From assembly GCA_017553785.1 (NCBI GenBank), contig JAFZKD010000106.1, positions 1 through 40,849 of the forward strand: DNA of 40,849 nucleotides, given 5' to 3'. This DNA is from Muribaculaceae bacterium (GTDB lineage: Bacteria > Bacteroidota > Bacteroidia > Bacteroidales > Muribaculaceae). Shown in pieces: positions 6,445 through 31,682 of this stretch. The notes beneath the pieces were generated by a model. It worked only from the letters and a program-made list of their open reading frames with translations, was not told the DNA's origin and made no database searches. Each line of letters begins with the position of its first letter. Position 1 is the stretch's first letter. A program made the translations under genes and the position numbers.

Positions 6445-9024
6445 TTAATTATTTCCTCTTAAAAGCATGTCAATCAGTTCGGTCACATCACTAATACCGA
6501 TTCGGCCATCCCTGTCCACATCGGCAGCAGCCATGTCATACACCGTGAGCACCGATCCCAGCAGGATATCAATAAGGTCAGTCACATCATCAATACTGAT
6601 CCTGCCGTCCATATTCACATCGCCCACCATAGAGCCACCTGTCACGGTTACCACAAATTCGGTTTCAGCCATTTGGCCGTTACTGTCGGTAGTCACTTTA
6701 ACCGTAGTCCGACCCGCAGCCATCGCTTTAACAACCAGCTTAAGACCAATGACTTGAGCCTGTACTATGGACTCGTCAGTGCTCACAGCCGTCGTCACCG
6801 CAAGCGCTGCCATGTTATCGGGATCGTTAACGGCATGGAGCAAATCGACTTCACTGCTCGTCCCTCTCGATAACGTCATGTCACTGACTCTTATACTGGG
6901 AGCGAACAAGTCAGGGTAAACCGCCAAGGCTGGAAACCAATAGGCGTCCTGCAAGCGCACCTGGCGTTTGAGTTCACCAGTTGCCGCGTTATAGAACAAC
7001 ACCCAGTTGTGGTTGAAGTTCTGATAGGCATACATCGGTGCCGCCTCGGTCGTCTGCACCACCATATCGCCCGTGTGCGGATCAAAGCTCAACGCCGAGG
7101 CATACAGGCCCTGACGTTCGATAGTTCCGTCCCAATTGGTCTCTACCCCATCAGGTAAGAGAATGAGCGTATCGGTAAACTCACGCGAGGTGAAATCATA
7201 ACTACTGATAAAGTTCTGATATTCCTCATGACTGAAATAAACACGCTCGGTCTGGGGATCCACACACAACATGCGGGCATGCCATGCACCCCAAGCACAC
7301 ACCGCCCCCTTGTCACCAGGCAGGTTATGCACAGCGAGAATATCAAAGGTCACAGGGTCCACTTGAGTGAAATCGGCTTCAAAAGGACCGGTGCCAAAGT
7401 CATAGACCTCACGGCTGTTGTTAGCCACATACAGGTTTGCGCCAGCCGTGACAAAGACCGTGACGATATCGGGGAACGGCAGGGTGGCAATAACCACGTC
7501 GGCCTCGGGGTCAATCACATGCAACCCCTTGCCCTGCTGCACGGCAAAGACATACTGCCCAAAGCGCACCATATCACCGCACTGGTCATAATACAAGCTG
7601 TTGTAGTCTCCCCTGGCACTGGATTGGGTGCCGTCGATGGGGCCGGTGACCGTCATGCCGGCAACATCCAGCACAAATATGCCAGCATTTGTCGAGACGT
7701 AGCCCTTGGCGTTATTGACCGCGCAATAGGCGCGTCCGTCATAGACGCTGTCCATCGTCGCACCAAACCTCAGGATGCCGGCCTGCTGCCTGAGCGTCGC
7801 GCCATCCAGCACGGCCAGACGTGAGCCCACGGTGCTACCGCCAGACTCGCTACTGTTAGCCTGCTTGCTCACGACAAATAGCTTATCGCCAAAGAGTTGT
7901 CCGTGTTGCGATGTCACACCCAACTTCACGCCAGGGTTGACAAACGCGAACACGTTGTACTCCATTTCATCATAATCATAATTATAGTAGTTGATCGAGC
8001 CCTGATTGGCGCCATAGCGATCCTCATTAATGAAAATGATGCCATTAGTGAACGTGAAATCGTCAGGACCGGGATCAGGCTCATCGGCCTCGGCATCAGG
8101 ATGCAGGTCCTCGGCACCGCAAACCTCGGTCGACACCTCACCCAACCATCCACAATAGTCAAGTTGAGCGCTATATACTTTAATAAAGTCAATGTGGTCG
8201 AGTGTAACGGGATTGCCGTCCTCATCAACCGCCCAGTCAATCATGAAACCAGGCTCATCTCCGTTGGGCACGTTGTCCACATAACCCTCTCCAAAGAAAG
8301 GCTGGAACCAATTATTACCCTTGCCACCGCTCATGTCGATGGAGGAGTTGGGCAACTTGGTGCCACGGAAGGTGAGCACCGTGTCCTCAATCCACAATGG
8401 CCAATAAGGTTGGTTGCGGAATGTATTGCGCCACACATAGCCACTGGTGCTGTCGGGGTTCTCATCGTTACTGGTCCAATAGACATACTCGACATCGTTG
8501 ATGAACCGCCAGCTATCGTGTGGCACCCGTTCCTTGTTCTCGTCGGGCTTATAATAAGTGACCTCAAAACCATGCTGGCAACGGTCATAGTCGGCGCCCT
8601 TGATTTCATACCACAAGTCTCCGTCGCTTGGCACACCGTCACCATCCATATCCACGCCCACCATGATAATGCCCGGCTCACAACTGCCTCCTGCCTGATC
8701 GGGTACAGCATTGCTCTGCATGGCGTTGCCATAGATTTTCACGTCATAGCCATGCTTGTTGATCACGGGATGGTCAAAGCCAAAGATGATATATCCACCA
8801 TAACTGCCCAAACTCACCGTACCGCCCAGTTTTCCGCACAAAGCGGTTTCCAACTGAGCATTGATACTGTCCTGGGTATAACCTGGCGAATAAGCCGGAA
8901 ACACGTTCACGAACTGACCAGGAGCAGGCAGATAGTCATACACATGGGCAATGTAAGGCGAATTGCCGGCAAAAGCCACTGTTGCAGCCGTCAAGGCCAT
9001 TGCGATAAGTAACGATTTCTTCAT
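6445..9024 (-). CDS. B12-locus surface protein fused to BtuG-like propeller, with dockerin tail
   Basis: An 859-residue secreted protein, first gene of a cobalamin-riboswitch unit. Residues 1-19 are a type I signal peptide with no lipobox Cys. About 20-315 closely match the separate protein at 27225-28436 (PAPGQFVN, GFDHPVIN, GGSCEPGI, MVGVD.DGDGVPS.GDLWYE, PYWPLW, HIDFIK). About 325-705 are a YncE/DUF5074-type beta-propeller like BtuG, the surface B12-capture lipoprotein of Bacteroides, although this copy has no lipid anchor. About 706-799 resemble a Big-like beta-sandwich. About 800-859 are a dockerin-like pair (GDVNMDGRISIDDV and ADVDRDGRIGISDV). The domain order joins two products that the second B12 unit makes separately. 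Cobalamin or cobinamide capture at the surface is inferred from family and riboswitch. How the protein stays on the cell is unknown; the dockerin tail is the obvious candidate. Confidence 0.88.
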   Translation of the reverse strand: MKKSLLIAMALTAATVAFAGNSPYIAHVYDYLPAPGQFVNVFPAYSPGYTQDSINAQLETALCGKLGGTVSLGSYGGYIIFGFDHPVINKHGYDVKIYGNAMQSNAVPDQAGGSCEPGIIMVGVDMDGDGVPSDGDLWYEIKGADYDRCQHGFEVTYYKPDENKERVPHDSWRFINDVEYVYWTSNDENPDSTSGYVWRNTFRNQPYWPLWIEDTVLTFRGTKLPNSSIDMSGGKGNNWFQPFFGEGYVDNVPNGDEPGFMIDWAVDEDGNPVTLDHIDFIKVYSAQLDYCGWLGEVSTEVCGAEDLHPDAEADEPDPGPDDFTFTNGIIFINEDRYGANQGSINYYNYDYDEMEYNVFAFVNPGVKLGVTSQHGQLFGDKLFVVSKQANSSESGGSTVGSRLAVLDGATLRQQAGILRFGATMDSVYDGRAYCAVNNAKGYVSTNAGIFVLDVAGMTVTGPIDGTQSSARGDYNSLYYDQCGDMVRFGQYVFAVQQGKGLHVIDPEADVVIATLPFPDIVTVFVTAGANLYVANNSREVYDFGTGPFEADFTQVDPVTFDILAVHNLPGDKGAVCAWGAWHARMLCVDPQTERVYFSHEEYQNFISSYDFTSREFTDTLILLPDGVETNWDGTIERQGLYASALSFDPHTGDMVVQTTEAAPMYAYQNFNHNWVLFYNAATGELKRQVRLQDAYWFPALAVYPDLFAPSIRVSDMTLSRGTSSEVDLLHAVNDPDNMAALAVTTAVSTDESIVQAQVIGLKLVVKAMAAGRTTVKVTTDSNGQMAETEFVVTVTGGSMVGDVNMDGRISIDDVTDLIDILLGSVLTVYDMAAADVDRDGRIGISDVTELIDMLLRGNN

Positions 9025-9044
9025 GTCACATAGCGTTTAAACGT

Positions 9045-9062
9045 TCCACATCCTATTGTGGA
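9045..9062 (-). repeat. Small hairpin before the fused B12-protein start codon
   Basis: TCCACA (9062-9057) and TGTGGA (9050-9045) form a 6-bp stem with a 6-base loop, about 21 bases upstream of the ATG at 9024. The palindrome CGTTTAAACG lies at 9034-9043. Both fall in the ~160-base leader that follows the riboswitch and could affect ribosome access. Confidence 0.4.
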
Positions 9063-9182
9063 TCAAGTGACAAGAAGTGCTGACTATAGATTGCTGATGA
9101 CTTCAAAAAAGCATTGATTGCTCTGCATCATCTCACTTCGCCAGGGTCCAAATGCCACGTGAACCACGATAGATTGGCCGTG

Positions 9183-9385
9183 TAAAGGCAGGTCTTCTGA
9201 CTTCTCCCCCATCGCGACGGCGCCTTCCCGGTGATGATGCAGACCATGTTTTGCAACCAGTGGCGTGAATGCCGCACGATGTGTTGTCAGGGAGTTACAG
9301 CAGCGGGTACTGTCCAGGATTCTCACCTGATTCCCTTTTCATCCCCATTGCCGCCCAAGCGACACAGGGAACCTCAACACGTTCA
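9183..9385 (-). ncRNA. Cobalamin riboswitch of the first B12 unit
   Basis: The minus strand carries the B12-box core (GGTGAGAATCCTGGACAGT, about 9328-9310), followed by CCGCTGCTGTAAC. It closes with the diagnostic 3' segment GTCAGAAGACCTGCC (9201-9187). A 5' segment (GAGGTTCCC) begins near 9380. These are hallmarks of the class I cobalamin riboswitch. It lies between a promoter at 9397-9428 and the fused B12-locus gene at 9024, so B12 should repress that gene and the DUF4465 gene behind it. The leader after the aptamer is unusually long, about 160 bases, so the expression platform is not obvious. Confidence 0.93.
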
Positions 9386-9396
9386 AATAATTGTTG

Positions 9397-9428
9397 CAAA
9401 GATATCCCAAATTTCTGAATTCAGCAAG
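9397..9428 (-). promoter_or_regulatory. Promoter of the first B12 unit
   Basis: On the minus strand CTTG (9428-9425; consensus TTTG), a 20-base spacer and TATCTTTG (9404-9397) fit the Bacteroidetes promoter. The spacer contains the palindrome CTGAATTCAG (9415-9424). It sits just after the C10 peptidase stop codon and fires into the riboswitch. Confidence 0.65.
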
Positions 9429-9444
9429 AGAGTTCATGTTTTTT

Positions 9445-11757
9445 TTACATCATCAGCTTGTCGATAAGGGAGGTAATGTCGGCCAAATCAACCTGCCCAT
9501 CCCCATTCACGTCACTATACTCAGTAATATCTGCAGCGAGAATCTGGTCAATGAGTTCAGTGACATCGTCAATGTTGGTGCGACCGTCATGGTTCACATC
9601 GCCCTCGGTCGGGTCAATGCCGATGATGGAAGCGAACTGGTTCCACGGCGATGCCGCCTTGTAAGCCTCTACAGCAGCCATAGGCACACGGAGTGTGGCA
9701 TGCTCATAAACATTCTTGAACACGTTGGAATTGATGGAAATAGGCTCGGGAACAAGGCAGGTAACAACCCGCAAGCTATCACAGCCATTGAACGCGTTAG
9801 AACTAATTGAAGCGACAGAATTGCCGATGAGCAAGTTCCTCAACTTTGAGCACTTATAAAACGCAGACATGCCGATTTTTGTGACTGAGTTTGGTATAGA
9901 CACACTCATCAAACCCGAACACAAGTCAAACGCCCTGTCACCTATCTCAGTAAGGGATTTGCCCAAAGTCAACTCCTCAAGCCCTGAATTCTCATAGAAT
10001 GCCGACTGGTTGATAGTGATGACGGAATTAGGAACCACCAACCGTTTCAACCCTAAACATTTATAAAAAGCATTGGCACTGATCTTTTCGACAGACTCAC
10101 CTATGACCAGTTCCTTGATCTTAGTATTCTTGGCGAAATTGTTAGGTATCACCTCGACGCTATTGCCGATTGTCACCTTCACCGTATGATTAGGGACGAT
10201 GGACAATACGGTGGGTGGACAATTCCTGGGGTTCCAGATAAAATGTTTCAAGTTGGCACAGCCCGCAAAGGCCTGATCCCCGACCGAACCAACCAATGAA
10301 GGAATCGTCAATTCCATCATATTGGTGCAATAATCGAACACGTTATTGCCTATGGTTGTCACCGATTCCGGCAGTTTTACGCTGGTCAGATTTTCACAAC
10401 CCAAAAACAGCTTTGAAGGGATGTCCGTGATTCCAGTAAAATGCTGGAACTCGTCAAACGAGTACATTCTAGACCAGTCAAACAGTTTCAAATCCGTTAC
10501 GGCAGCTGCTTCCTCCATGGTGAGCACGCCATCATCATTCTCATCAGCTATATGCAGGCAAGAGGCCCTGGCTAAGGGGTCAGCAAACTGGATGCCCATA
10601 CCGGCTGGAGGCAGTGCCGGTCTGGGCTCCGCATAGAAAACGGCTTGTTGATAATTGTTGTAGTTCAAGAGACTGGTACCAATCGAGTCGATAGCCGTGA
10701 GCCGAAAATAGCCATGTGTATTTCCCCACCCCCAGACGATGTGGAAGAACCCATCACCATCATAACCATCGCACACAAAGGCATGACCAATCATGTTTGG
10801 ACGCCAACCAGCATATAAAACCGGGCGCGAGTTGTTCAGTTCATTATAGACCAGGTACTCCCATTCCTCATCCGAGAAGCCACAATAGTCCCTATCCAAA
10901 CATTCCGCTTTAGAGCCATAGTTAAAATAGGCAATCAGCGCTTGTGGCACATTTGGCGTCCTGGCGCTCGAAGAGCCTCGCTTGTAATTCATCTGCACCG
11001 ATGCGCCGCAATATTTCATCAGGTTAGCGACTGCTGCTATCTGCTCTTCGGTCCTTTCCCCGTCGCCCCAGTAAGAACTCATCATGTTGTCCCAATCGAT
11101 AAATGATCCCGCAGGAACCTCTTCAACGTTCTCGCCTATACTGGTAGTGTAGGCTGGAATCTCGTGGGTAGTCCTATCCACCGAATTAGCATGGTGGTAA
11201 TACATCACTTGAGCCATTGCCGTTGCCACGCAACCGGTCGCATAGTGGTTCCCGTTGGTGTCAACCGGACAAGAGATATTATAAGGGTCTACTTGGTCCC
11301 ATCTGGTTGTCAATAATGGAGACACTGGTGGCAACTCAGGAGATTTCATGCCCATGCGCGAAGCGGACAACCCGTTTTCCTGCATGAACTGAATCTGACG
11401 GGCATACTCATCAAGCCACCACCGCATGTTATCAGGCAATTTGTTGATGTCAACCGAACCCGTATAGGAGTAGCCCAAGATAGCGGGCGCGCGATCGTCT
11501 CCGCTGGCAATGACATAGCCTTCATTGTCACCGATGTTGAACACATAGTAAAGTTGTAACCCATCGTTTTGGGTAGCACGCAACGGCACATGTTGAAACG
11601 AGGCGACAGCGATGTCCTCGCCCCGTTCCAGCATAAAGGCCCGGGCATGCTGTTGCGCCTGCTGACGCGTGATGGGGTTTGCCATGATCCGTAACGTGGA
11701 GGCCACGCAGAGCATCAGTGACAGCGTGAATAACGGTTTCAGCCTTAGAGAGGTCAT
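9445..11757 (-). CDS. Secreted C10 (streptopain-like) cysteine peptidase with LRRs and dockerin tail
   Basis: A 770-residue secreted cysteine peptidase of family C10, the family of streptococcal SpeB. Residues 1-26 are a signal peptide. About 27-150 are a Spi/propeptide-like region (ITRQQAQQHARAFM, YVIASGDDRAPAILGYS) expected to hold the enzyme inactive. The catalytic domain has Cys176 in YATGCVATAMAQVMYYH, His325 in IGHAFVCDGYDGDG, and FFHIVWGWG. About 410-450 contain an EF-hand-like ADENDDGVLTMEEA segment. About 470-690 are BspA-type leucine-rich repeats. About 712-770 are a dockerin-like pair (GDVNHDGRTNIDDV, SDVNGDGQVDLADI). The frame opens ten codons earlier at 11787, but the Met at 11757 starts the signal peptide directly. 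The intact catalytic pair suggests an active enzyme. The LRRs may hold protein or host ligands; this is inference. Confidence 0.9.
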   Translation of the reverse strand: MTSLRLKPLFTLSLMLCVASTLRIMANPITRQQAQQHARAFMLERGEDIAVASFQHVPLRATQNDGLQLYYVFNIGDNEGYVIASGDDRAPAILGYSYTGSVDINKLPDNMRWWLDEYARQIQFMQENGLSASRMGMKSPELPPVSPLLTTRWDQVDPYNISCPVDTNGNHYATGCVATAMAQVMYYHHANSVDRTTHEIPAYTTSIGENVEEVPAGSFIDWDNMMSSYWGDGERTEEQIAAVANLMKYCGASVQMNYKRGSSSARTPNVPQALIAYFNYGSKAECLDRDYCGFSDEEWEYLVYNELNNSRPVLYAGWRPNMIGHAFVCDGYDGDGFFHIVWGWGNTHGYFRLTAIDSIGTSLLNYNNYQQAVFYAEPRPALPPAGMGIQFADPLARASCLHIADENDDGVLTMEEAAAVTDLKLFDWSRMYSFDEFQHFTGITDIPSKLFLGCENLTSVKLPESVTTIGNNVFDYCTNMMELTIPSLVGSVGDQAFAGCANLKHFIWNPRNCPPTVLSIVPNHTVKVTIGNSVEVIPNNFAKNTKIKELVIGESVEKISANAFYKCLGLKRLVVPNSVITINQSAFYENSGLEELTLGKSLTEIGDRAFDLCSGLMSVSIPNSVTKIGMSAFYKCSKLRNLLIGNSVASISSNAFNGCDSLRVVTCLVPEPISINSNVFKNVYEHATLRVPMAAVEAYKAASPWNQFASIIGIDPTEGDVNHDGRTNIDDVTELIDQILAADITEYSDVNGDGQVDLADITSLIDKLMM

Positions 11758-11865
11758 TTCTATTTCTTTTTTAAGGTGATTAATCATGACAAAAAGAAGG
11801 ATGGTCCATTCAATACAATTGCCCGAAACATCGCTCTATTGGCCTTTGGTACGGTGACTCGACTC

Positions 11866-13803
11866 TTATTGGACAGATGTCTGCAGGATGATATCGATGA
11901 TTTCATTGACGTCGGCAAGATTGATCTCGCCGTCGTTGTTCACATCAGCGCCATCAGGAACGGGTGTGGCACCCAACACCACAGCAATGACGCTGTTGAT
12001 GTCGCTGACGGTAATCTCCTTATCCCCGTTCACGTCACCCTGAACATAATCAAAGTCAACTTCAATCATTGTCTCAAACAAAGACCAGGGATATGTGCTC
12101 GCGTAAAGCGCAGTGGTGCCCAGAGGGATATACAACGGAACTTTACAGCTGTCAAAGCAACCACTAAACATTTCGGGGGGAGTAGGTGCCTTGCAAACAA
12201 CTTTGGTCAGCTCCTTGCATTTGGCAAAGGCCATCCTCCCGATAGAGATTACCGAGGAGGGCAGATCGGGCACCTCCAGCGAATCACATTTCCAGAAAGA
12301 ACTACCCCCGATGTGTAGCAAAGAACCAGACAACACAATAGTCCGCAAATCCCTGCGATCATAAAAGGCATAATCAGCGATTCCTTTTGTATCATGCCTC
12401 AGCACTATTTTGCCATTATCGGGCATGTTCCCTTTATAACCGATAGCTACCTGTCCAGCATACACGACACCATTGGGCTGACGGCTATACCACGGAGTGT
12501 CTCTAAACACCGTGCGGCCCATGTCACACAACGATTCCGGGAGGGATACATCGGTCAACGATTTGCAGAAAGCAAAAGCCCCATCATTGATACGTGTCAC
12601 CGACTCAGGCACCACGACAGAGTTCAACCGACAGCCATAGAATGCGTCCTCTCCAATAGACGTCGCTGTTTCAGGAATACTCACGCTCGCAAGGTTTGAG
12701 CAGGCATAAAACAGTTCATCGCTGATGTTGATCAGCTGTTCAGGGAGTTTAGCCGTGGTCAGACCTGTACAAACCCTAAAAACCCCAGTTCCCAGTGTTT
12801 TCACACCATCAGGAACCTGTACATCTGTAAGCCCACTACACCCCGCAAAAGCAAAATCATCAATTACTGAGAGCGAATCGGGCAATGCCAAACTTGTCAA
12901 GCTTTTGCATCCAGCAAAAGCACTCATGCCAACCCGTTTCACACTCTTGCCCAGCGTCAGTTTTATCATAGCCCGGCAATCCTCGAACGACCCAGAGCCA
13001 ATATCGGTTACAGAATTGGGAATAATTACACTGGTTAATTTACTACAGTTCTTGAAAGCACTCGATTGTATTTTCCTCAATGATTCCGGCAAATCAATCG
13101 AAATCAGGCCCATGCCCTCAAAAGCTCCGTAACCAATAACCTTTACCGATTTTGGAATAACAGTATTGATACAGCCTAACAACAAATAGTCATTCTTAAT
13201 CCCAATAATCGCATTGCAATTCTCTCGAGAATCATAGCATGGGTTACCTTCTGCTACCTGAATACTGGTTAGATTTCTGCAATACCAGAACGCATGGTTT
13301 CCGATTGAGGTCACTGATTTGCCTATGGTCAGACTTGATAATGCATCACATAAAGCAAACGCATCATCCCCTATGGTGGTCACATTGTCAGGGATAAGAA
13401 CAGATTCCAAAGCAGATGATTCAAATGCTTCTTGTTCAATATCGGTAACGGTGTTCGGTATGGACACACTTGTGACATTGGCACCATAAAAAGCGAGAAA
13501 TCCTATCTTGGTCACCCGATAGGTTCGCCCGTCATAAGTGACTTCGGGCGGAATAACCACATCACCTTCGTAATCATGCTCCGATCCATTCCTCTTGATG
13601 GGAGATATCCTGGGAATTACGGGAGACGTTGGCTCCGGCCCTGCGTAGTATCTATAGGTAACACTGACCGTTGTAGAATCTTCAGAGTTGATGTCATAAT
13701 ATATGCTGTTAACGCTGAAGTCATAGGCGCTTGAGGTCACTGAACAGCAACACAAGGCAACAAGCGTTAATGCAAACCAGAGAGTACGTTGTTGATGTTT
13801 CAT
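11866..13803 (-). CDS. Secreted BspA-like leucine-rich repeat protein with dockerin tail
   Basis: A 645-residue secreted protein. An N-terminal signal peptide (to about residue 26) contains a CCC run but no clean lipobox. About 80-570 are many ~23-residue LRR_5/BspA repeats of the form LTSVxIPxSVTxIGxxAFxxC, e.g. LTSVIIPNSVTDIGSGSFEDC-like units. About 588-645 are a dockerin-like pair (GDVNGDKEITVSDI, ADVNNDGEINLADV). BspA-type LRRs in oral and gut Bacteroidetes bind host matrix proteins or other cells; a binding role here is by family only. The gene lies 108 bases upstream of the C10 peptidase gene on the same strand, with no clear terminator between, so the two may be cotranscribed. They also share the LRR type, suggesting a common ancestor for the repeat block. 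Confidence 0.9.
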   Translation of the reverse strand: MKHQQRTLWFALTLVALCCCSVTSSAYDFSVNSIYYDINSEDSTTVSVTYRYYAGPEPTSPVIPRISPIKRNGSEHDYEGDVVIPPEVTYDGRTYRVTKIGFLAFYGANVTSVSIPNTVTDIEQEAFESSALESVLIPDNVTTIGDDAFALCDALSSLTIGKSVTSIGNHAFWYCRNLTSIQVAEGNPCYDSRENCNAIIGIKNDYLLLGCINTVIPKSVKVIGYGAFEGMGLISIDLPESLRKIQSSAFKNCSKLTSVIIPNSVTDIGSGSFEDCRAMIKLTLGKSVKRVGMSAFAGCKSLTSLALPDSLSVIDDFAFAGCSGLTDVQVPDGVKTLGTGVFRVCTGLTTAKLPEQLINISDELFYACSNLASVSIPETATSIGEDAFYGCRLNSVVVPESVTRINDGAFAFCKSLTDVSLPESLCDMGRTVFRDTPWYSRQPNGVVYAGQVAIGYKGNMPDNGKIVLRHDTKGIADYAFYDRRDLRTIVLSGSLLHIGGSSFWKCDSLEVPDLPSSVISIGRMAFAKCKELTKVVCKAPTPPEMFSGCFDSCKVPLYIPLGTTALYASTYPWSLFETMIEVDFDYVQGDVNGDKEITVSDINSVIAVVLGATPVPDGADVNNDGEINLADVNEIIDIILQTSVQ

Positions 13804-22890: not shown

Positions 22891-22941
22891 AATGTTAATT
22901 AATGATTTAGTTAAATGAAAAACGAGTAATTGTATCCGCTG

Positions 22942-22972
22942 CAAAGATAAATCTAATTTTAATAACTGCAAA
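22942..22972 (-). promoter_or_regulatory. Promoter of TVxDG paralogue 3
   Basis: On the minus strand TTTG (22972-22969), a 19-base spacer and TATCTTTG (22949-22942) match the consensus fully. The site is 52 bases upstream of the ATG at 22890 and supports that start. Confidence 0.8.
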
Positions 22973-23072: not shown

Positions 23073-24644
23073 TTAAATTGCCCAGTTGCCACTCAACAAG
23101 AAATCGATAAGTGCTGTAACATCGCTGATGTCAACCCGTGTGTCAAGATTGCAGTCAGCCTCATCGTTAGTCTCGGCTCCACTCAGCAACATGTCAATGA
23201 GTTCAGTGACATCCGAGATGTTCACCACTTTATCGCGGTTCACATCACCACGCAACACCTGGGGCTGCTCTTGCTTGGTGCAAGTGAAAGTCACCTTGGG
23301 TAAGAACTTATCGGTATTGCTGTAATTACCGAAGTTCGAGCTGTAGGTAAAGTAGGAGGTCACTCCTGGGGTTTTCTCGCCATAGAATTTCTTGTTAGAG
23401 AACTGGCCAGCCTCGGTAACCACTGTTCCGATGGCAAGATTACCTCCAGTGTAGGTAAACGGCTCATCAAAAAAGATCTCGAACAATTCAGTTCCAGCCA
23501 CGGGAACCACAGTAGCGACAAGTGTCATTCCGGTAATAGGAACTGAGCTTTCAAATACCTCCTGGTCCGTCATTTTGAGTGATACCTGAATCTTTCCGCC
23601 CGAGATGCCCACATTATCGGTAGGATAGAATGTGAGGGCAAAGATTTCCCTGCCCATAAGGTCGGTGAGCTTCTCGGCAGGATAGATCATCTGGCTCACG
23701 CCACCGGGAAGATCATAGTAGAAGCTGTAAACGGGCAGTGACGAACTGGAATAGGTATCATCGCAAACGGTAAACTCATCGGCCTCGGGGAGCCCCTTAC
23801 CCTCAAGTTCAACGACATAAGTGCCAGCGGCCCCACAATCAACTGTCATCGAGCCATTGAAGTCTCCTTCGGTTGTAGGAGAGAACTTCACAGGAACCTC
23901 AATGGATTCTCCATTCTGCAATGCAGCAGGCACTACCGAAACGCTGAAGGGTGCATCGACAGAAATCACAGGAGTAATGGGATTTTGGCCGGCATTCTTA
24001 ATCACAACCGAAAGTTCCTCCTCGTTGCCGACACGAATGGGCTTGAAGACAAGATTGCCGGGTGATACTGCTGCAGCATACTCGGCCGGGACGTAATCAA
24101 AGGTCGTCTTGGGGATAAATGACACTTGCTGCGAACGTGACTTTGCAGCAGGGTAATAGGGATTCACGCCCAGGAAAGGCGCATTGCCATAAGTGCCCAC
24201 CTCGGTCACACGAGTGTCGAGCAAAAGATTGCCGCCTTGGTAAACAAAAGGCTCATTAAAAGTGATCAACACCTCACTCACACCTGCCGACAGAGTTACA
24301 GTTGCCACTTGGGTCAAGCCAGTCTCGACAAACTCATTACTCGAGAAGTTAACTTGCTCGACAGTTCCTAACGATACTGTCACCAAGCCCCCCTGATAGT
24401 CGGAAGTGCCGCTGACATAAAACTTCATCGAGTTGATGGGACGGCCAATCATCTCGGTCAGTTGATCGGCAGGGTAAATCACTTGGGTTTGGGTGGCATC
24501 ATCGTCCAGCCAATACACATTGATAGGCACCGTGTTCTGAGTGGCAGTGCCATCAAATACCGTCAATTGGGCGCCCTGGGCCACAGGAACAAACATGCAG
24601 CAGGAGAATACCGCAGCAAAGATTAGTCTAAAAACATGTTTCAT
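23073..24644 (-). CDS. Secreted two-module TVxDG protein with dockerin tail (paralogue 4)
   Basis: Function not recognised. A 523-residue protein with a signal peptide to about residue 24 (FVPVAQGAQ). Module A is about 26-190 (LTVFDGTATQNTVPINVYWL, QVIYPADQLTEMIGR, PFVYQGGNLLLDT, FIPKTTFDY). An ASH-like domain follows (LVFKPIRVGNEEELSVVI, VKFSPTTEGDFNGSMTVDC). Module B has FTVCDDTYSSSSLPVYSFYY, QMIYPAEKLTDLMGR, FTYTGGNLAIGT and FLPKVTFTC. The dockerin-like pair (GDVNRDKVVNISDV, ADCNLDTRVDISDV) ends in GNWAI. It is the outermost of the four paralogues and has its own promoter-like site and a strong terminator, so each member seems to be a separate unit rather than one operon. No catalytic motif is seen. 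Confidence 0.85.
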   Translation of the reverse strand: MKHVFRLIFAAVFSCCMFVPVAQGAQLTVFDGTATQNTVPINVYWLDDDATQTQVIYPADQLTEMIGRPINSMKFYVSGTSDYQGGLVTVSLGTVEQVNFSSNEFVETGLTQVATVTLSAGVSEVLITFNEPFVYQGGNLLLDTRVTEVGTYGNAPFLGVNPYYPAAKSRSQQVSFIPKTTFDYVPAEYAAAVSPGNLVFKPIRVGNEEELSVVIKNAGQNPITPVISVDAPFSVSVVPAALQNGESIEVPVKFSPTTEGDFNGSMTVDCGAAGTYVVELEGKGLPEADEFTVCDDTYSSSSLPVYSFYYDLPGGVSQMIYPAEKLTDLMGREIFALTFYPTDNVGISGGKIQVSLKMTDQEVFESSVPITGMTLVATVVPVAGTELFEIFFDEPFTYTGGNLAIGTVVTEAGQFSNKKFYGEKTPGVTSYFTYSSNFGNYSNTDKFLPKVTFTCTKQEQPQVLRGDVNRDKVVNISDVTELIDMLLSGAETNDEADCNLDTRVDISDVTALIDFLLSGNWAI

Positions 24645-25062
24645 AACGTAGTTAAAAGATTTTTAGTTAAGTGATTAGAAATTATAATAAGTCAATAGTG
24701 AACCATATCAGTTACATTTCTCAACTAAACGACAAATATACAACCTTTTTCTCTTTGCCACAATATTATTCTGATAAAAAAGGCGCTTGGCAGGTTATCA
24801 CAACGAGAATTGCACGAGTACTGGCCATCCCAGTTAGCTAAAAGTGTTAATAATAATGCACTTTGCAGCAAATAAAGGGCAAAAGGTTTGTGGTATTGGA
24901 TTTTTTGTGCGTAATTTGCAAGTGAATTCAGTGGTATAGAAGTCCAACTGCGAGTTACTTTTACCCGCAGTTTTATATTTGCCGTCATATAACGGCACTG
25001 AACCCATACTACCATCACAATATTAAACAATTTGAACACTTAGAATACTATAATTGGGAAAA
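24645..25062. other. Divergent spacer between the 23073 and 25063 genes
   Basis: A 418-base non-coding stretch. On the minus strand ATTG (24764-24761), a 20-base spacer and TATATTTG (24740-24733) form a possible promoter for the gene at 23073-24644. On the plus strand TATATTTG (24974-24981) is a -7 match for the gene at 25063, immediately preceded by an inverted repeat AACTGCG/CGCAGTT (24946-24972). GCCGT/ACGGC (24981-24996) then forms a small hairpin at the expected start of the leader. A 104-codon open frame on the minus strand here lacks any family signal and is not called. Confidence 0.5.
24946..24981 (+). promoter_or_regulatory. Possible promoter/operator of the plus-strand dockerin gene
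   Basis: TATATTTG (24974-24981) matches the Bacteroidetes -7 box. The 7-bp inverted repeat AACTGCG (24946-24952) / CGCAGTT (24966-24972) occupies where the spacer and -33 box should be. No TTTG is found at the right distance, so an activator might substitute. The leader would be about 75 bases. Confidence 0.4.
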
Positions 25063-27144
25063 ATGAGAAAATTTTACAAACTTATGGTTGCGGCAGGGTT
25101 GTTCTTTGTCGCCATGAGCGCGTCAGCGCAAAAAACAGCGTACGGCTACACCATGATGCCGTGCACATCACCGGCAATGGTCCGGTTCACCACCGATGAT
25201 CTGTCATCGGCCACCCAAATGGGTACATATTCCAAGGCTGAGCCCCGCTCAGGTGCCCTTGTCGGCAGCACGTTGTACATGATGGGCATCGACGATGACT
25301 TCAATGTGTGGTTCTACAGCATGGACACCAACACCGGTGAGAGCCAAACGATCAAGAAACTGGGTGATGAGACCATCCCTGGCGACATGAGCTACGACTA
25401 CACGACCAATACCATGTACTTTATCGCCAACAGTCCTGATGTGGATGGCGTGTCGGCGATAGGCACCGTGAACCTGGAGAACGGGAAAATGACTTTCACC
25501 CACAATCTTCCCAGGTACTGCAAAGCCATCGCTATCAATGCCCGTGGAGAAATGTACATTCTTGCCAATAGCGGTCACCTTTACAAAGCGAACAAAGGCA
25601 ATGGTGACCTCTCACTGGTTGGTCCCACTGGGGTGCAGTTCGCTTCCTGGTGGAACTTCCAGAGCATGGAATTTGACCGTGAGAAAGGTATCCTCTACCT
25701 TGCGGCATGGACGAGTGACGAAAAGAGCGTGCTGTATACCCTCGACACCAAGACCGGCAATGCCACCCAATTGGGAATCATTGGTGACGGCACCCACACC
25801 ATCGCCTTGTCTATCCCCTTTGAGCCGACGAGTGGTAGCGCACCTGAACGAGTGACCGATGCCACAATAGTCGCCAACCCTGATGGCGAACTTCAAGCTA
25901 CAATCAGCTGGACTAATCCCATCAATGACTATGACGGCAATGCCCTTGAAGGCAATATCAGCATCGAAATCATGAACTCGGTGACAGGCGAAAAAACCAC
26001 TATCGAGAACTGTCAACCCGGTGCCGCAATGGAACAGGTTGTTGAGGTTGCTGAGGCCGGCATGTACACCTATACCTTGACCGCTGTCAACGAGGCAGGA
26101 GCAAGTCTGGAGCAGCCTGTGGAGGCGTGGATCGGCCACGACATCCCCTCTGTCGTAGGCAATCCTAAAGCCGTGCTGAACCGCACCAGCCTCTTGGTGA
26201 ATGACCTCCTTTGGGATGCTCCCGTGACAGGTGCTCACGGCGGATTCCTGGACCTGAAATCTCTCGAATATGACATCATTCGCTTGAATGACAACCGTGT
26301 GATTGCCGAAGGCATCACCGCCACCTCGTTCAGTGACGAGAATCTGTTGGAAGACCTGACCCGCTACAGCTACATGATTATCGCCAAGAGCACCGATGGC
26401 ATCGGAGAAGGCATCAAGACCAATGACATTGTGAACGGTCCTGCCGTGAAATGCCCCTATGTTGCCCCCTTCAACTCATGGGAAGAAAGCGGCCAGTACT
26501 GGACCATTCTTGACGCTAACGGCGACGGCTACCCCTTCGTGTGGTATAAGGACTTCATGAATATGTTCGGCCAAGGCGGTGACAAGTGTTTCTATATCTA
26601 CCAGAAGAATGACGTATTTTATGCCTATGATTTCATCATCTCTCCTCCCATCGAATTCCAGGAGGGCCACGAATACAAAATCACCGCTAACGTGAGCAAT
26701 GACGACATTGCCGGATATCGTGAGGAACGTTTCCGCTTCTATACCTTCGCAGGTTATGATATGGCAGGCGCTGTGCCCCTGGGCAACGAGGCTTTCACCG
26801 TCAAACATCACGGTGAGTTCCGTGACTACAGTTTCACTTTCACTGTAGAAGACGACGGACAGGGGGCCGACAATGAGCGATTCGTCAGCTTCATCGCCCT
26901 GTGCTGCTGCTCACAGTACGATATGGGTATGCTTCTCGTGAACAGCATGGCCATCGAGGATATCACGCCGTCGACCACAGTGAGAGGTGACGTTAATGGT
27001 GACGGTGAGGTGAATATCGCTGACATCAATGCCGTGATTGATGCCATCATTTCGGGAAAATTCAACAAGAACGCCGACATCAATGGGGATAACGAAGTCA
27101 ACATTGCAGACATCAGCGAATTGATTGACATTCTGCTTCAGTAA
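25063..27144 (+). CDS. Secreted propeller/Fn3-like/jelly-roll protein with dockerin tail
   Basis: Function not recognised. The 693-residue protein is the only plus-strand gene. Residues 1-22 are a signal peptide (FFVAMSASAQ). About 25-260 look like a beta-propeller of short repeated strands (ALVGSTLYMMGID, YDYTTNTMYFIAN, EFDREKGILYLAAW, VLYTLDTKTGNATQLG). About 265-455 are two Fn3-like segments (ERVTDATIVANPDGELQATI, VVGNPKAVLN). About 460-630 resemble a choice-of-anchor-J-like jelly roll (APFNSWEESGQYWTILDANG, FDIIS-type PPIEFQEGHEYKITANV). The end is a dockerin-like pair (GDVNGDGEVNIADI, ADINGDNEVNIADI). The frame opens at a TTG (25054), but ATG at 25063 is the better start. It has no TVxDG module and no Trp-capped tail. 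It converges on the second B12 unit, and the two share a two-way terminator. Confidence 0.85.
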   Translation: MRKFYKLMVAAGLFFVAMSASAQKTAYGYTMMPCTSPAMVRFTTDDLSSATQMGTYSKAEPRSGALVGSTLYMMGIDDDFNVWFYSMDTNTGESQTIKKLGDETIPGDMSYDYTTNTMYFIANSPDVDGVSAIGTVNLENGKMTFTHNLPRYCKAIAINARGEMYILANSGHLYKANKGNGDLSLVGPTGVQFASWWNFQSMEFDREKGILYLAAWTSDEKSVLYTLDTKTGNATQLGIIGDGTHTIALSIPFEPTSGSAPERVTDATIVANPDGELQATISWTNPINDYDGNALEGNISIEIMNSVTGEKTTIENCQPGAAMEQVVEVAEAGMYTYTLTAVNEAGASLEQPVEAWIGHDIPSVVGNPKAVLNRTSLLVNDLLWDAPVTGAHGGFLDLKSLEYDIIRLNDNRVIAEGITATSFSDENLLEDLTRYSYMIIAKSTDGIGEGIKTNDIVNGPAVKCPYVAPFNSWEESGQYWTILDANGDGYPFVWYKDFMNMFGQGGDKCFYIYQKNDVFYAYDFIISPPIEFQEGHEYKITANVSNDDIAGYREERFRFYTFAGYDMAGAVPLGNEAFTVKHHGEFRDYSFTFTVEDDGQGADNERFVSFIALCCCSQYDMGMLLVNSMAIEDITPSTTVRGDVNGDGEVNIADINAVIDAIISGKFNKNADINGDNEVNIADISELIDILLQ

Positions 27145-27168
27145 CAGGAATCAGTTCCACATCTGAAC

Positions 27169-27201
27169 AAAACAGGCGGCCAGCAACGGGTCGCCTGTTT
27201 T
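27169..27201. terminator. Bidirectional terminator between convergent genes
   Basis: AAAACAGGCG (27169-27178) and CGCCTGTTTT (27192-27201) form a perfect 10-bp stem with A/T runs on both sides. It ends both the plus-strand gene at 25063-27144 and the second B12 unit, whose last stop codon is at 27225. Confidence 0.9.
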
Positions 27202-27224
27202 AATTCCTAATATGGGAAAGCAGG

Positions 27225-28436
27225 TTACATGAGAATAGCCCCAATAATCACACTCACATCACTGATGTTCACTTCCTTATCACCATTGACATCGCCGTCA
27301 AGCATCGTTCCGCCCGATAAAATCATGTCAATCACGGCATTCACGTCGCCAATATTCACCTCGTAGTCACGATTGACATCCGCAGGAAGGATTTGTGACA
27401 TCTCTGCGTCAGGATGGAAATCCACCCCACCGGCGACCTCGGTTGATGTCTCACCAATCCATCCGCAATATTGGTTCACGGCATTATAAATCTTGATGAA
27501 GTCGATATGGGTGAGATTAACGTGATTCCCCTGTCCATCAACAGCCCAATCAATCTTGAATCCAGGATTATATCCCTCTACACCAGGCAAATGAGCCGGA
27601 TGGTTGGGCAAGTTATCGGCATATCCCCAATCAAAACAATACTGCACGAAATAGGCGTTGCCATCATTATTGCCCAAATCCACCGCGTTGCAACGCAACT
27701 TGGCACCCGAGTAGGTCAATGTCTCCTGATCTTGCAGCCACAGCGGCCAATAGGGTTGCAGGTGATACTGGTTGCGGCTCATGTAGCCCTCGATGCTATC
27801 GGGATTAACATCGTTACTCGTCCAACGGATATAAGTCGTGTCAATCAGAAACGGGTCGGTGACGCTGGGCGTCCGCTGCTTATTCTCGTCAGGACGATAA
27901 TAGGTGACACTATAGTCATGTTGGGTCTTGGGGTTGTTGTACTCGCTACCTGCAAGCTCATACCACAGGTCTCCCTCGCTGGGCACACCGTCACCATCCT
28001 TGTCCACGCCCACCATGACGATGCCAGGCTCACAACTGCCGCCCGCTTCCATGCGATCGCTGTAGAATGCGTTTCCGAGGATGTCAAAATCCCATGTGTG
28101 CATATTGATCACAGGGTGGTCAAAGCCTACAATCACATAGCCACCAAATCCTCCAAGCGTAATCATCCCCTCGGACCAGACCGTATCGATTTGAGTAATC
28201 GTCTGACCGTGCCAGGTCTGAGTGACGGTGTCAATGCGTCCACAAATGCTTGCCTGACAACGGGACAGGACGCTATCCAGCGGTTCCCCTACCCTGGCTG
28301 TCGGCAATGTATTGACAAACTGCCCTGGAGCAGGGCGATATTCATATACCCGATTGAGCCAAGGATGATTGGCCCACAACGTCAATGCCGAGATCACGGC
28401 CATGACGACCAAAACTAATTGCTTTGAATTCTTCAT
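27225..28436 (-). CDS. B12-locus surface protein with dockerin tail
   Basis: A 403-residue secreted protein, third gene of the second B12 unit, starting 16 bases after the btuG-like gene. The signal peptide ends near residue 22 (ALTLWA) and has no lipobox. About 23-345 form one domain strongly similar to the N-terminal third of the fused protein at 6445-9024: RPAPGQFVN, GGFGGYVIVGFDHPVIN, GGSCEPGIVMVGVDKDGDG, SEGDLWYEL, QPYWPLW, HIDFIKIYNA, STEVAGGVDFHPDAEM. The tail is a dockerin-like pair (ADVNRDYEVNIGDV, GDVNGDKEVNISDV). Homologues sit beside BtuB/BtuG genes in Bacteroidales, but I know no proven activity. Its fusion to a BtuG-like propeller in the other unit argues that it works directly with BtuG. 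The first gap-containing segment (WHGQTITQIDTVW) is an insertion relative to the fused copy. Confidence 0.87.
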   Translation of the reverse strand: MKNSKQLVLVVMAVISALTLWANHPWLNRVYEYRPAPGQFVNTLPTARVGEPLDSVLSRCQASICGRIDTVTQTWHGQTITQIDTVWSEGMITLGGFGGYVIVGFDHPVINMHTWDFDILGNAFYSDRMEAGGSCEPGIVMVGVDKDGDGVPSEGDLWYELAGSEYNNPKTQHDYSVTYYRPDENKQRTPSVTDPFLIDTTYIRWTSNDVNPDSIEGYMSRNQYHLQPYWPLWLQDQETLTYSGAKLRCNAVDLGNNDGNAYFVQYCFDWGYADNLPNHPAHLPGVEGYNPGFKIDWAVDGQGNHVNLTHIDFIKIYNAVNQYCGWIGETSTEVAGGVDFHPDAEMSQILPADVNRDYEVNIGDVNAVIDMILSGGTMLDGDVNGDKEVNISDVSVIIGAILM

Positions 28437-28452
28437 ATCTCTATTTGTTTAA

Positions 28453-29598
28453 TTATAGTTCATTGATATTATTTCCCAAAAAGGCGAAATGGGCCGGGAT
28501 GTCGCCCGTGCGCACATCCCACTTCTTTACACCATAGCGGTCGAAACAATAAAGACGCCCTGGTGAAACGTAGTCCTTGGCATCGGTCACATAGATGTCC
28601 TTGGTGATCGGATTAACAGCGACGGAATAAGGGATGACAATCTCCTGGTCTGAGCCATCGGAGATGAAGTTGTCGCACACCTTCTCGCGTGTACGGGTGT
28701 TAATGACAGCGTAAGAAAAGGTATTACTCATCGACACATAGCTCCACTGGGTGCCCACAATGTAGAGCGAGTCACCGTCTAGCCACATGTTACTCACGCG
28801 GCAATCGATACTGTCCACCAGCTGCTGCTTGCGCGTGTCATATGCGTATATCTTGCTGGGGCGCGTGTAGTAGTCTCCACGAGAGGCTATCCACAGTACA
28901 CCGTGGCGGTCACTCTTGACCCACGACAAATTGATGGCGATGGGAATGCGGCGCTCCTCCTTGAAGGTTTGCAAGTCAATAACCGACACGGTATTCTCGT
29001 AGTTGGGCACCATGTAGCCACCCGAATTAGCAACATAGATCTTTCCCTCGACAATCTCCAGTTCATCAGGCTGAAAACCCACTAAACAGGTATCCACAAT
29101 CTGCATGGTTACCGTATCGATCTTGGCGACATAACCGCGTTGCTCATAATTGGGATTGATCTGCACAGGACCGGCATAGCTGGTCACATAGGCATAGCCG
29201 CCACAGAAGCGGATGAAACGGCAATTGGGAATATCTATCTGATACTTTTTCTTGCAGCTGTACTTATCCAACACGTCCACCTTGTTAGAGCAGTTTATGA
29301 CACAATACATGTTACTACCATAGATGCCGATATCGTTCCCCACGTCTCCCATTTCCTTGGGAACGGTGGGATTGGCATAGGAGAACACATTGCGGATGTA
29401 GTCACCACTCGCATAGTCATAGTAGTCGAGCGTCGCCTTGTTCCAGCCCATATTGCCCTCGCACAAGAGGTAGAAACCTTCGATATCGGTGAACTCGGGC
29501 TGAGCGACCGACACGTGCTCGGGGAGGAAGATGGTCACCTCCTCGCGGCAAGAAGCGAGCGTCATGAGCAACAATATGAAATATGCTAACTTTTTCAT
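28453..29598 (-). CDS. btuG: BtuG-like surface lipoprotein for vitamin B12 capture
   Basis: A 381-residue lipoprotein with a YncE/DUF5074-type beta-propeller. The signal peptide ends in the lipobox LASC (Cys17), followed by Arg-Glu-Glu, close to the acidic export signal that sends Bacteroidetes lipoproteins to the cell surface. The propeller starts FYLLCEGNMGWNKATLDYYD and runs through repeats such as NDIGIYGSNMYCVINCSNKV, FCGGYAYVTSYAGPV and ELEIVEGKIYVANSGG. In Bacteroides, BtuG sits on BtuB and binds cobalamin very tightly before passing it in. The start ATG overlaps the stop of the receptor gene (TGATG, 29600-29596), which implies translational coupling and equal supply of partners. Identity as BtuG rests on fold, lipobox, gene order and riboswitch. 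Confidence 0.88.
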   Translation of the reverse strand: MKKLAYFILLLMTLASCREEVTIFLPEHVSVAQPEFTDIEGFYLLCEGNMGWNKATLDYYDYASGDYIRNVFSYANPTVPKEMGDVGNDIGIYGSNMYCVINCSNKVDVLDKYSCKKKYQIDIPNCRFIRFCGGYAYVTSYAGPVQINPNYEQRGYVAKIDTVTMQIVDTCLVGFQPDELEIVEGKIYVANSGGYMVPNYENTVSVIDLQTFKEERRIPIAINLSWVKSDRHGVLWIASRGDYYTRPSKIYAYDTRKQQLVDSIDCRVSNMWLDGDSLYIVGTQWSYVSMSNTFSYAVINTRTREKVCDNFISDGSDQEIVIPYSVAVNPITKDIYVTDAKDYVSPGRLYCFDRYGVKKWDVRTGDIPAHFAFLGNNINEL

Positions 29599-31682
29599 CA
29601 GATATCGAATTTGAGGATGAATTTGTAGTTGCGGCCAGGCATGGGATAATTCATGATGACGTCATAGTACTGGTTGAAGAGGTTGTTCACCTCGGCCGAT
29701 ACCTTTAATGACATCTTTCCTACATGGAATAGATAGCCCGCAGACAGGTCATGGGTATACCATGGCTGCTCATGGTTCTCGCGGGTATTTGCGCTGGTGT
29801 GATAGCGTTCGCCCACATAGATGAAACTGTAGTTCACATCCAGGTCACGCCAGCTGGCATGTCCCACGACCGAACCACTATGCCACGGGATATAGGCCAG
29901 TTGTCCCTTGTAGGTGCCACCGTCCTCACAATCGTCTGGATTGGTGTAATCTTGGGCCTTCTGGTAGGTGTAGCTCAGATTGATGTCGAGAATCACATCG
30001 GCCAGCAAGCGCAATGTGGTTCGCGCACTGACATCAAGACCGCGAATCTTAACGATACCCACATTCATCATCATCCACCGGTACTGTCCCGTACCTTTAG
30101 GAACAGCAATGATCTTATCGGTGATGTAATTATAGTAGGCGTCTGCACTCAATTTGACGCCCTCAAGCAACCCTCGATCGGCAAGCAAGCGGTAAAGGAA
30201 ACCCACATTGTACTGGGTCGCAAACTCCGGATCAAGGGTGATGTTACCCATATCAGTATAATACAGGTCGTTGAACGTGGGTAGCCTGAAAATGCGCTTA
30301 TAATAGGCCCTGATGTTGAAATCACGTTCCAGCCACGGTTGCCAACTGAGGAAAACGGCAGGAGTCACCTTGTTCTCATACTTGCTCATCTTTCCTATCA
30401 CCTCACCATTGAACCTTGCCGACGAGCGGTCATTGACCATTGTGTAGAGCAGACTGCCCTGAGCCTTGAAACCATGCCAGGTATAGGCTGACGCCAACGC
30501 TGTCAACACCGTGTGGCGGATAGGATAACCGAATCCCGTCAAGGTGGCGTCAAGGCTATTCAACTGATAGTCCACCGAGAGATTCACATCCCAGTCGGAG
30601 ATGATGGTATATTTATTGGCTGTTGATAGATAAATCTCGTCTTGCCAAAACTTGTTGTCGATATACATCAACGTGGTGTCGGGATTGAGATAATGCAGGT
30701 AGTCACGCGAGTATTTGGCGTTGAACATCATCTCGTAGCGGTCCGAAAACTTGCGCTGATAGGCACCCTGGGCAAAGAAATTGCGGTCCCACTGCTTTTG
30801 GGCATGTTTCCACACGTTGTTGACGATGGCACCTGGAATGCCCTTGCTGCTATCATAGTAATAGGCCTTGGCATGCCATTTGCCGCTGGACATGACACCG
30901 AACACGGCACCTTCAAGCCTGTAGGAACGGACTTCGCCGTTCTGGCGCACGGCTGTTGTATCCCATGCCAGAGAACCGTCACTGTAATGACGCATGTAGC
31001 GGAAGCGGTACTTGCCAGTGGCATAAGTGAACTCGCTGTTGAAAGACAGACTCACCGAATTGCTCAACTTGTGTTCCCAGCGCACACTGGGATTGACCAG
31101 ACCAAAGGAACCGGTCTTGAACGACACATTGAGATTATCGCGTTTGCCGACTTGAAACTTTGGACGGCGGGTGCGCAGGTAGATGGTTCCTGCTGAGCCG
31201 TAGTCCTTGGCACTCTGAAAGATGTTGCTGCGCTGTCCGTTGTAGAGGGATATCGCCTCAATATTGTCAAGCGAGAATTTTCCCAAGTCAACTTGACCGT
31301 TTTGGGCATTACCTATCTGAATGCCGTCATAGAACACCCCCATGTGATTAGTGCCCATCGAGCGGATATCCACTGTCTTGAGGCCACCCACACCACCATA
31401 GTCCTTGAGCTGGACGCCAGCGAAATAGCGCACGGCATCGGCCACCGAATGGCTATTCAGACCTTCCAACCGCTTGCCGGTGAGTTCCTGGGCAGGAATC
31501 ACATCCTCATAGGGTCGCCTGCCATAGATAATGACGTTCTGGATATATTCCATGGAGTCCAGCCTGCCGTGTCCCACGGCTGCCATGACCGAGTCGGCCT
31601 GATGCGCAAGAAGACCCTCTTGGGCATTAGCGCCCAAGAGACACACCAAAACATAAAAAGCTATGACTAACGCTCTTTGCAT
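29598..31682 (-). CDS. btuB: TonB-dependent vitamin B12 receptor, BtuB-like
   Basis: A 694-residue outer-membrane receptor that takes up cobalamins using TonB energy. The signal peptide ends near residue 20 (LLGANAQ). About 45-165 are the plug, with IQNVIIYGRRP as the likely TonB-box region and then VADAVRYFAGVQLKDYGG, GGLKTVDIRSMGTNHMGVFY, DGIQIGNAQNGQVDLG and IEAISLYNGQ. The rest is a 22-strand-type barrel ending in the aromatic-rich NYKFILKFDI. It has no N-terminal carboxypeptidase-like extension, so it is a BtuB-type rather than SusC-type receptor. It lies about 30 bases after a cobalamin riboswitch, and the BtuG-like gene is coupled to its stop codon. Both fix its substrate class as corrinoids. 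Confidence 0.93.
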   Translation of the reverse strand: MQRALVIAFYVLVCLLGANAQEGLLAHQADSVMAAVGHGRLDSMEYIQNVIIYGRRPYEDVIPAQELTGKRLEGLNSHSVADAVRYFAGVQLKDYGGVGGLKTVDIRSMGTNHMGVFYDGIQIGNAQNGQVDLGKFSLDNIEAISLYNGQRSNIFQSAKDYGSAGTIYLRTRRPKFQVGKRDNLNVSFKTGSFGLVNPSVRWEHKLSNSVSLSFNSEFTYATGKYRFRYMRHYSDGSLAWDTTAVRQNGEVRSYRLEGAVFGVMSSGKWHAKAYYYDSSKGIPGAIVNNVWKHAQKQWDRNFFAQGAYQRKFSDRYEMMFNAKYSRDYLHYLNPDTTLMYIDNKFWQDEIYLSTANKYTIISDWDVNLSVDYQLNSLDATLTGFGYPIRHTVLTALASAYTWHGFKAQGSLLYTMVNDRSSARFNGEVIGKMSKYENKVTPAVFLSWQPWLERDFNIRAYYKRIFRLPTFNDLYYTDMGNITLDPEFATQYNVGFLYRLLADRGLLEGVKLSADAYYNYITDKIIAVPKGTGQYRWMMMNVGIVKIRGLDVSARTTLRLLADVILDINLSYTYQKAQDYTNPDDCEDGGTYKGQLAYIPWHSGSVVGHASWRDLDVNYSFIYVGERYHTSANTRENHEQPWYTHDLSAGYLFHVGKMSLKVSAEVNNLFNQYYDVIMNYPMPGRNYKFILKFDI

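Follow-up and report, generated by a model that had tools for sequence, protein, structure and literature searches.

The window analysed here is a stretch of 40,849 nucleotides from a Muribaculaceae bacterium (contig JAFZKD010000106.1 of assembly GCA_017553785.1). Its minus strand contains two units, each preceded by a cobalamin riboswitch, which encode relatives of the vitamin B12 uptake proteins BtuB, BtuG, BtuH, BtuK and BtuJ (the DUF4465 family). The domains themselves are known; the unusual part is the dockerin tail that B12 proteins carry here. We consider it rather probable that the two units form one corrinoid scavenging system, in which dockerin-held capture proteins of the BtuH, BtuK and BtuJ families (H, K and J hereafter) feed the BtuG-BtuB pair.

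Two cobalamin riboswitch units

A search with Rfam RF00174 placed two cobalamin riboswitches on the minus strand, which bears out the two riboswitch units of the original prediction, a reading made from the letters of the window only; its open reading frames (ORFs) and coordinates were also confirmed. The elements of each unit are listed below in gene order, with lengths in amino acids (aa); the domains of the fused protein follow its own line.

Unit 1
31696..31913, minus strand: cobalamin riboswitch of the btuB unit (RF00174, 81.4 bits)
29598..31682, minus strand: BtuB-type TonB-dependent receptor, 694 aa (PF07715 Plug)
28453..29598, minus strand: BtuG surface lipoprotein, 381 aa, lipobox ..LASC (BtuG structure matches)
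27225..28436, minus strand: free BtuH protein, 403 aa, Sec-type signal, dockerin tail at 27231-27383 (8blw_B, 7biz_A, PF00404)

Unit 2
9170..9391, minus strand: cobalamin riboswitch of the fused unit (RF00174, 105.3 bits, full length)
6445..9024, minus strand: fused BtuH-BtuK-Ig-dockerin protein, 859 aa, Sec-type signal, without lipobox
8080..8967, minus strand: BtuH domain of the fused protein, residues 20-315 (8blw_B and 7biz_A matches)
6907..8052, minus strand: BtuK-type DUF5074 propeller of the fused protein, residues 325-706 (Pfam DUF5074, 9s6c_A)
6631..6906, minus strand: immunoglobulin-like (Ig-like) domain of the fused protein, residues 707-798, named by its look
6460..6624, minus strand: dockerin tail (Dockerin_1) of the fused protein, residues 801-855 (PF00404)
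4823..6406, minus strand: DUF4465 (BtuJ-type) protein with a dockerin tail at 4844-5002, the next gene of the fused unit

Neighbouring genes within both units overlap by one base or are separated by 16 to 38 bases. The receptor scores 106 bits against TIGR01779, under the cut-off of that model (599.7). Unit 2 has no btuB or transporter gene and encodes putative binding proteins only, each with a Sec-type signal and a single C-terminal dockerin; its dockerin-tailed DUF4465 gene had been overlooked in the original prediction. In scans for sigma-70 promoters and terminators the number of sites was close to that in shuffled sequences or modestly above it, and we drew nothing from these scans.

The fused protein and its two B12-binding families

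The N-terminal domain of the fused protein had been predicted to match the free 27225-28436 product, and it does (residues 2-318, 49% identity over 350 positions, E 6e-110). It had been left unnamed; from its structure matches, however, it is assigned to the characterised B12-binding BtuH domain. Both the fused protein (residues 23-308) and the free one (residues 26-341) align with the BtuH part of BtuG1 (8BLW, chain 8blw_B; E 2e-53 and E 3e-55, respectively) and with BtuH2 (7BIZ, 7biz_A; E 4e-32 and E 1e-36). BtuH2 is described as binding B12 via the BtuH domain of 7BIZ, with Gln333, Asn399, His476, Tyr510, Trp511 and Trp577 as contact residues (PMC8941943). These positions were mapped by reading alignments and counted over 37 H domains of unit-2 type and six free copies. 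All 37 unit-2 domains have the equivalents of Gln333, Asn399, Trp511 and Trp577, 34 have that of His476 (the window copy has Arg203) and none has that of Tyr510. The six free copies retain the equivalents of Gln333, Asn399, His476 and Trp577, and have Tyr in place of Trp511.

The two propellers of the window had been predicted to be of the same type. This stands at the level of the Pfam family, as DUF5074 matches both (237 bits for the fused and 41 bits for the 28453-29598 propeller), and their folds are alike; yet they share 23% identity over 98 residues only (E 9e-6), so that they are distantly alike, and they fall to different B12 proteins. The 28453-29598 product is a lipoprotein, adjoins btuB and has a propeller that matches BtuG structures (8blw_B 46-359, E 7e-35; also 8ptf and 8bmy). 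In contrast, the fused propeller has no lipobox and no btuB in its unit. Searched alone, it matched a single structure below E 1e-3 (9s6c_A, E 1e-12) and no BtuG structure up to E 1. As a six-row profile (A3), it scored 76.9 bits against 9S6C (E 1.2e-20) and 21.8 bits against BtuG. A BtuG identity of this propeller is rejected on these scores. We classify it as BtuK-type, with BtuK1 as its nearest solved relative, 9S6C being taken as BtuK1 from its entry title ("B12 Binding protein - BtuK1"). The window protein is thus a BtuH-BtuK fusion, which joins two families with known B12 binders. Because BtuK1 is reported to bind cobalamin tightly whereas its paralogue BtuK2 did not bind (PMC12751083), cobalamin binding by the window BtuK copy is likely but not certain.

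Among 148 genomes of the order, eight, including the genome of the window, match K strongly (at least 194 bits); all eight also carry H, which itself occurs in 32. In the seven K-positive genomes outside the genus (of 147 others), one of which (G027) had first been found through H and had contributed to the K profile, K always lies within 5 kb of H; these loci contain btuB in seven cases, btuG in six and a cobalamin riboswitch in six.

The Ig-like domain that follows the propeller is without a Pfam match, with predicted local distance difference test (pLDDT) values of 46-85 in blocks of ten. The full-length AlphaFold model of the fused protein is too poor at the H domain and supports only the presence of the propeller.

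Fused and split versions in related loci

A cobalamin riboswitch precedes all of the 36 related loci that we compared within the genus. As in the window, the H and K parts are encoded by one fused gene in 23 of them; in the other 13 they are two neighbouring genes for a BtuH-dockerin and a BtuK-Ig-dockerin protein. The Ig-like domain is present in the split and in the full-length fused versions. In six of the 36 record titles a ruminant is given as host (goat, buffalo, roe deer or sheep), and RUG bins are rumen genomes. In the original prediction the fusion was taken as evidence that the unnamed domain works with a BtuG-like propeller in corrinoid capture, with the btuB-linked genes of the window as the unfused pair. 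The domain does belong to corrinoid capture and is linked with a propeller, but this propeller is BtuK-type, and the true unfused counterparts are the split neighbours of the 13 loci rather than the btuB-linked genes.

The fused chain contains neither an inner dockerin nor an inner signal peptide, which leaves one tail per chain, and all fused copies have a similar linker. A single clean fusion event was considered and rejected, as the joint H+K tree rejects the fused copies as one clade (p 0.0004). The K-half tree rejects this clade (p 0.0002), whereas the H-half tree does not (p 0.29). Constraining the window H with L022/L024/L033 was not rejected (p 0.17), nor was constraining the window K with L001 alone (p 0.26). 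Because the trees of the two halves disagree, either the fused/split state changed more than once or one fusion spread by recombination. In a wider sample of 61 genomes of the genus, 58 have an H match and 27 the unit-2 type, with 17 of fused length and 10 of split length as read from scores and frame lengths.

Fusions in the order BtuG then BtuH were also observed in other genera (L051:1489-3444, minus strand, 651 aa; L140:12390-14429, minus strand, 679 aa); they resemble BtuG1 of Bacteroides thetaiotaomicron, whereas in the window fusion H comes before K.

Dockerin tails on the putative B12-binding proteins

The original prediction described the fused version as unlipidated and relying on a dockerin tail. 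Indeed, it has no lipobox and ends in a dockerin, but this tail is not special to it, because the free BtuH protein (27225-28436) has such a tail as well, at residues 352-402 (PF00404 24.6 bits, cut-off 22.9). The further claim that BtuG alone bears the lipid anchor in the free set agrees with our results: the only lipobox of the window is on 28453-29598, where it was read by eye and by a crude pattern (Sec-type signals were called by a crude rule).

The same distribution is seen over the window and the 36 loci. Dockerin tails occur on 23 of 24 fused proteins (the 24th is cut by a contig end), on 13/13 split H, on 13/13 split K and on 8/8 free BtuH proteins, two of which are 5'-truncated (L011 and L026). 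BtuG has a dockerin in none of six copies and a lipobox in five, including the window copy; the sixth is truncated. In all of the 134 dockerin ORFs of these loci there is one dockerin per chain, at most seven residues from the C-terminus; a Sec-type signal is found in 126 and a lipobox in none. On the proteins P0001 or P0002, no TIGR04183 or other recognised tail of the type IX secretion system (T9SS) was found with NCBIfam at E 0.01.

Other genera use other tails. The H proteins of 29 non-window loci of the order (30 examined) have a lipobox in 15 cases by the crude rule and a dockerin match in none. From the 14 that were not flagged for a lipobox, nine whose ends resembled T9SS tails were chosen and scanned, and eight of them carry the TIGR04183 tail above its cut-off; T9SS tails above cut-off were also found in 4/6 K and 2/2 J proteins scanned from other genera. 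Among the loci examined, therefore, these proteins have a lipobox or a T9SS tail in other Bacteroidales and a dockerin in the genus of the window only.

The J protein varies within the genus itself. The 4823-6406 product matches PF14717 (DUF4465, 116.7 bits), the PF00404 dockerin (27.7 bits) and the structures 9fct and 9i2l, which are BtuJ1 and BtuJ2 (PMC13398666); the MNTxxY stretch given as the BtuJ motif (PMC12751083) is visible in its alignment. In 35 of the 36 loci a DUF4465 gene comes after the fused gene or the split pair; L021 ends before that position. A dockerin is present on only two of 37 copies, the window gene and its close relative L022:12837-14420, while 31 end in another short tail (..VVVTTYTDGTTxxAKVIK), three are cut by contig ends and one ends early. 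The dockerin on these two copies, as against the short tail on the 31, is an in-place tail swap. By eye, a T9SS identity was suspected for the short tail, but Pfam and NCBIfam named no tail on the eight such J proteins scanned. A published census of 824 DUF4465 members lists C-terminal targeting motifs (IPR026444, IPR013424) as well as lipoprotein and periplasmic signals (PMC12751083); its spread of localisation signals resembles the one seen here, but without the dockerin.

Dockerins, cohesins and type IX secretion across genomes

The genome of the window (G000; 2.54 Mb, 80% complete, 5% contaminated) contains at least 149 dockerin matches, among the 150 of 270 candidates that were scored. 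In the genus, all 21 genomes searched have between 29 and at least 150, and 15 have more than 100. Across the order the distribution is patchy, with any dockerin at E 1e-6 in 30 of 148 genomes, including that of the window, and three others with more than 30.

Cohesin matches were found in 14 of 25 genomes of the genus, one to four in each and some below cut-off, and the scaffoldin search of the window's genome (about 80% complete) gave one partial, weak cohesin. The candidate of this genome, L037:4005-5846 (minus strand, contig C9), has 613 residues, a partial cohesin and an internal dockerin; its cohesin scores 30.6 bits in a protein scan (cut-off 24.1) but stays under the cut-off when the genome is searched, and a C-terminal match to DUF6383 narrowly misses the cut-off. 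It is the best candidate for a dockerin receptor. Internal dockerins also occur in other proteins of the genus, in L037, L070, L074, L076 and L077. In L070, a giant protein of 2510 aa (4050-11582, plus strand) has a weak, sub-threshold cohesin-like stretch at its N-terminus and lies beside a protein of about 1000 residues with an internal dockerin (L070:955-4047); similar pairs are seen in L072 and L078.

The T9SS translocon protein SprA is present in 23/26 genomes of the genus and in 12/12 good ones. Second, partial SprA-like matches were noted beside full-length sprA in some genomes of the genus (G000:C112:56203-56565, G174:C35, G168:C6 and G153:C66). Recognised T9SS tails number only eight at E 1e-6 in the genome of the window, and at least 36 in 94 of the 148 genomes of the order.

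Proposed scavenging system and alternative readings

In the scavenging system that we propose, B12 scarcity would allow expression of both units through their riboswitches, presumably repressed by B12. The btuB unit (riboswitch, BtuB, BtuG lipoprotein and BtuH-dockerin) would be the uptake gate, and the second unit (riboswitch, fused BtuH-BtuK-Ig-dockerin and DUF4465-dockerin) would supply binding proteins only. The H, K and J domains may capture corrinoids outside the cell, the H-K fusion placing two sites for capture on a single chain with a single tail, and would hand them to BtuG, the sole lipid-anchored member and the putative lid of BtuB. The dockerin most likely tethers these proteins to the cell surface via a protein that bears one of the genus's few cohesins; we modelled this tether on the single cohesin thought to act as anchor in Ruminococcus albus (PMC6118326). 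For relatives in B. thetaiotaomicron, B12 binding is known for BtuH, BtuK1, BtuG and DUF4465; slow release from BtuH2 is described in one report, and BtuG is known to act as a lid (PMC10404256). The receptor side weighs against this picture: the cohesin evidence in the genus is weak, and the idea of an anchor protein with both a cohesin and a T9SS tail lost ground, since the tails of the candidates are under their cut-offs. More broadly, the dockerin of this genus of gut Bacteroidales could be a general C-terminal localisation tag that has taken over from lipid anchor and T9SS tail alike on secreted proteins, B12-capture proteins included: a cohesin-poor sorting or anchoring route unrelated to the cellulosome in a Gram-negative host; we regard this wider idea as possible but short of probable.

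The dockerin might instead be a sorting tag read by the T9SS in place of its C-terminal domain, with cohesin binding secondary or lost. Such a role would suit the T9SS tails of the H, K and J families in other genera, the position of the dockerins in the window and the 36 loci (always at the chain end, singly and on proteins without a lipobox), the presence of SprA in most genomes of the genus despite the eight recognised T9SS tails in that of the window, and the exchange of tails on J (dockerin in 2/37, another short tail in 31/37). We nevertheless consider it unlikely. The dockerin is a helical calcium-binding fold and the T9SS tail a beta-sandwich; L077:1872-3878 has an internal dockerin followed by a T9SS tail above cut-off, and proteins of L037, L070, L074 and L076 combine internal dockerins with unrecognised or sub-threshold tails. 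Furthermore, members of the same family without dockerin matches also have few T9SS tails (one in G022, six in G131). A similarly doubtful proposal is that the cells shed the tailed proteins, which would then trap B12 in soluble form or on vesicles, while the dockerin would attach them to fibre, to vesicles or to one another and not to the cell that made them. The missing lipobox flag on window-type H, K and J and the few cohesins of the genus would fit release, as would the reports that BtuJ works through vesicles in B. thetaiotaomicron (PMC12751083) and that BtuG2 is able to act in trans from outside the cell, although E. coli-made BtuG2 did not (PMC6143338). However, free shedding would presumably feed competitors too, and because most genomes of the genus have more than 100 dockerins and the tail is also found on the C10 peptidase and leucine-rich repeat (LRR) proteins of the window, a general retention device is suggested.

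The reading of the original prediction, in which a BtuG-type propeller fused to its BtuH partner serves as a second BtuG for a BtuB, gains something from the common DUF5074 family and fold of the two propellers and from the existence of a BtuG-BtuH fusion (8BLW). We judge it highly improbable, as the fused propeller scores far closer to BtuK1 than to BtuG, unit 2 has no btuB, and the lipid anchor and linker by which BtuG is tethered to BtuB (PMC10404256) are absent from the fused protein.

Other dockerin proteins of the window

The next gene upstream of the unit-2 riboswitch (9445-11787, minus strand) encodes a C10 peptidase with a Spi inhibitor domain, LRR_5 repeats and a dockerin tail. Between 18625 and 24644 on the minus strand, three similar ASH/HYDIN-type Ig-fold proteins (523-529 aa) and a shorter protein (22138-22971) all end in dockerins, which looks like a local expansion of a gene family. 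Dockerin matches in the window, apart from those on the B12 proteins, include:

9454-9603
11887-12039
18646-18801
20442-20597
22153-22308
23094-23249
26986-27138

Comparison with known systems

A BtuG-BtuH fusion with two B12 sites has already been published as BtuG1/BtuGH, and each half alone is reported to bind cobalamin (PMC10404256 for the fusion, PMC12751083 for both). This protein of B. thetaiotaomicron (BT1490; 8BLW) is like that of the window in that BtuH is naturally fused to a B12-binding propeller of the DUF5074/YncE type within a B12 uptake locus. Unlike the window protein, it has a BtuG propeller, the order propeller then BtuH and a lipoprotein signal, and it sits on BtuB, whereas the window fusion has BtuH then BtuK, no lipobox, an Ig-like domain with a dockerin tail, and no btuB in its unit. 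BtuH1/BtuH2 (7BIZ) and BtuK1 (9S6C) of B. thetaiotaomicron belong to the same families as the fused halves, and btuK1, btuK2 and btuH1 of its operon 1 have adjoining locus numbers (BT_1486 to BT_1488); there, however, BtuH and BtuK are separate proteins with lipidation signals. The DUF4465/BtuJ family includes the 4823-6406 product, which shares its MNTxxY motif and has a dockerin in place of the published signal types. Therefore, a BtuH domain fused to a B12 propeller is already known, and the new elements are the reversed order, the BtuK partner and the dockerin tails.

The word dockerin is absent from the main text of PMC10404256, PMC6143338, PMC12751083, PMC8941943 and PMC13398666, and the literature search returned no paper pairing BtuH with "type IX secretion". 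Among the matches listed for dockerin and vitamin B12, no dockerin-tailed B12 binder appears in the titles or opening abstract text. The B12-capture domains H, K and J of Bacteroidota emerge as interchangeable modules, carried by a lipid, a T9SS tail or a dockerin, and split or fused. Because a B12-binding cargo is no fibre enzyme, this system gives a direct test of the purpose of the dockerin tails that are abundant in these Bacteroidales, and the dockerin question is the part worth following.

With cellulosome-type systems, the window shares a type I dockerin above the curated cut-off, and in a survey of the camel rumen, dockerins were connected with cellulosomes, those in Bacteroidetes bins among them (PMC6071333). 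The dockerin system of R. albus, for which a high dockerin:cohesin ratio and a single cohesin proposed as surface anchor are described (PMC6118326), resembles the genus studied here in having many dockerins and one or few cohesins. In contrast to R. albus, the host here is Gram-negative with an outer membrane, and the cargo includes B12 capture proteins.

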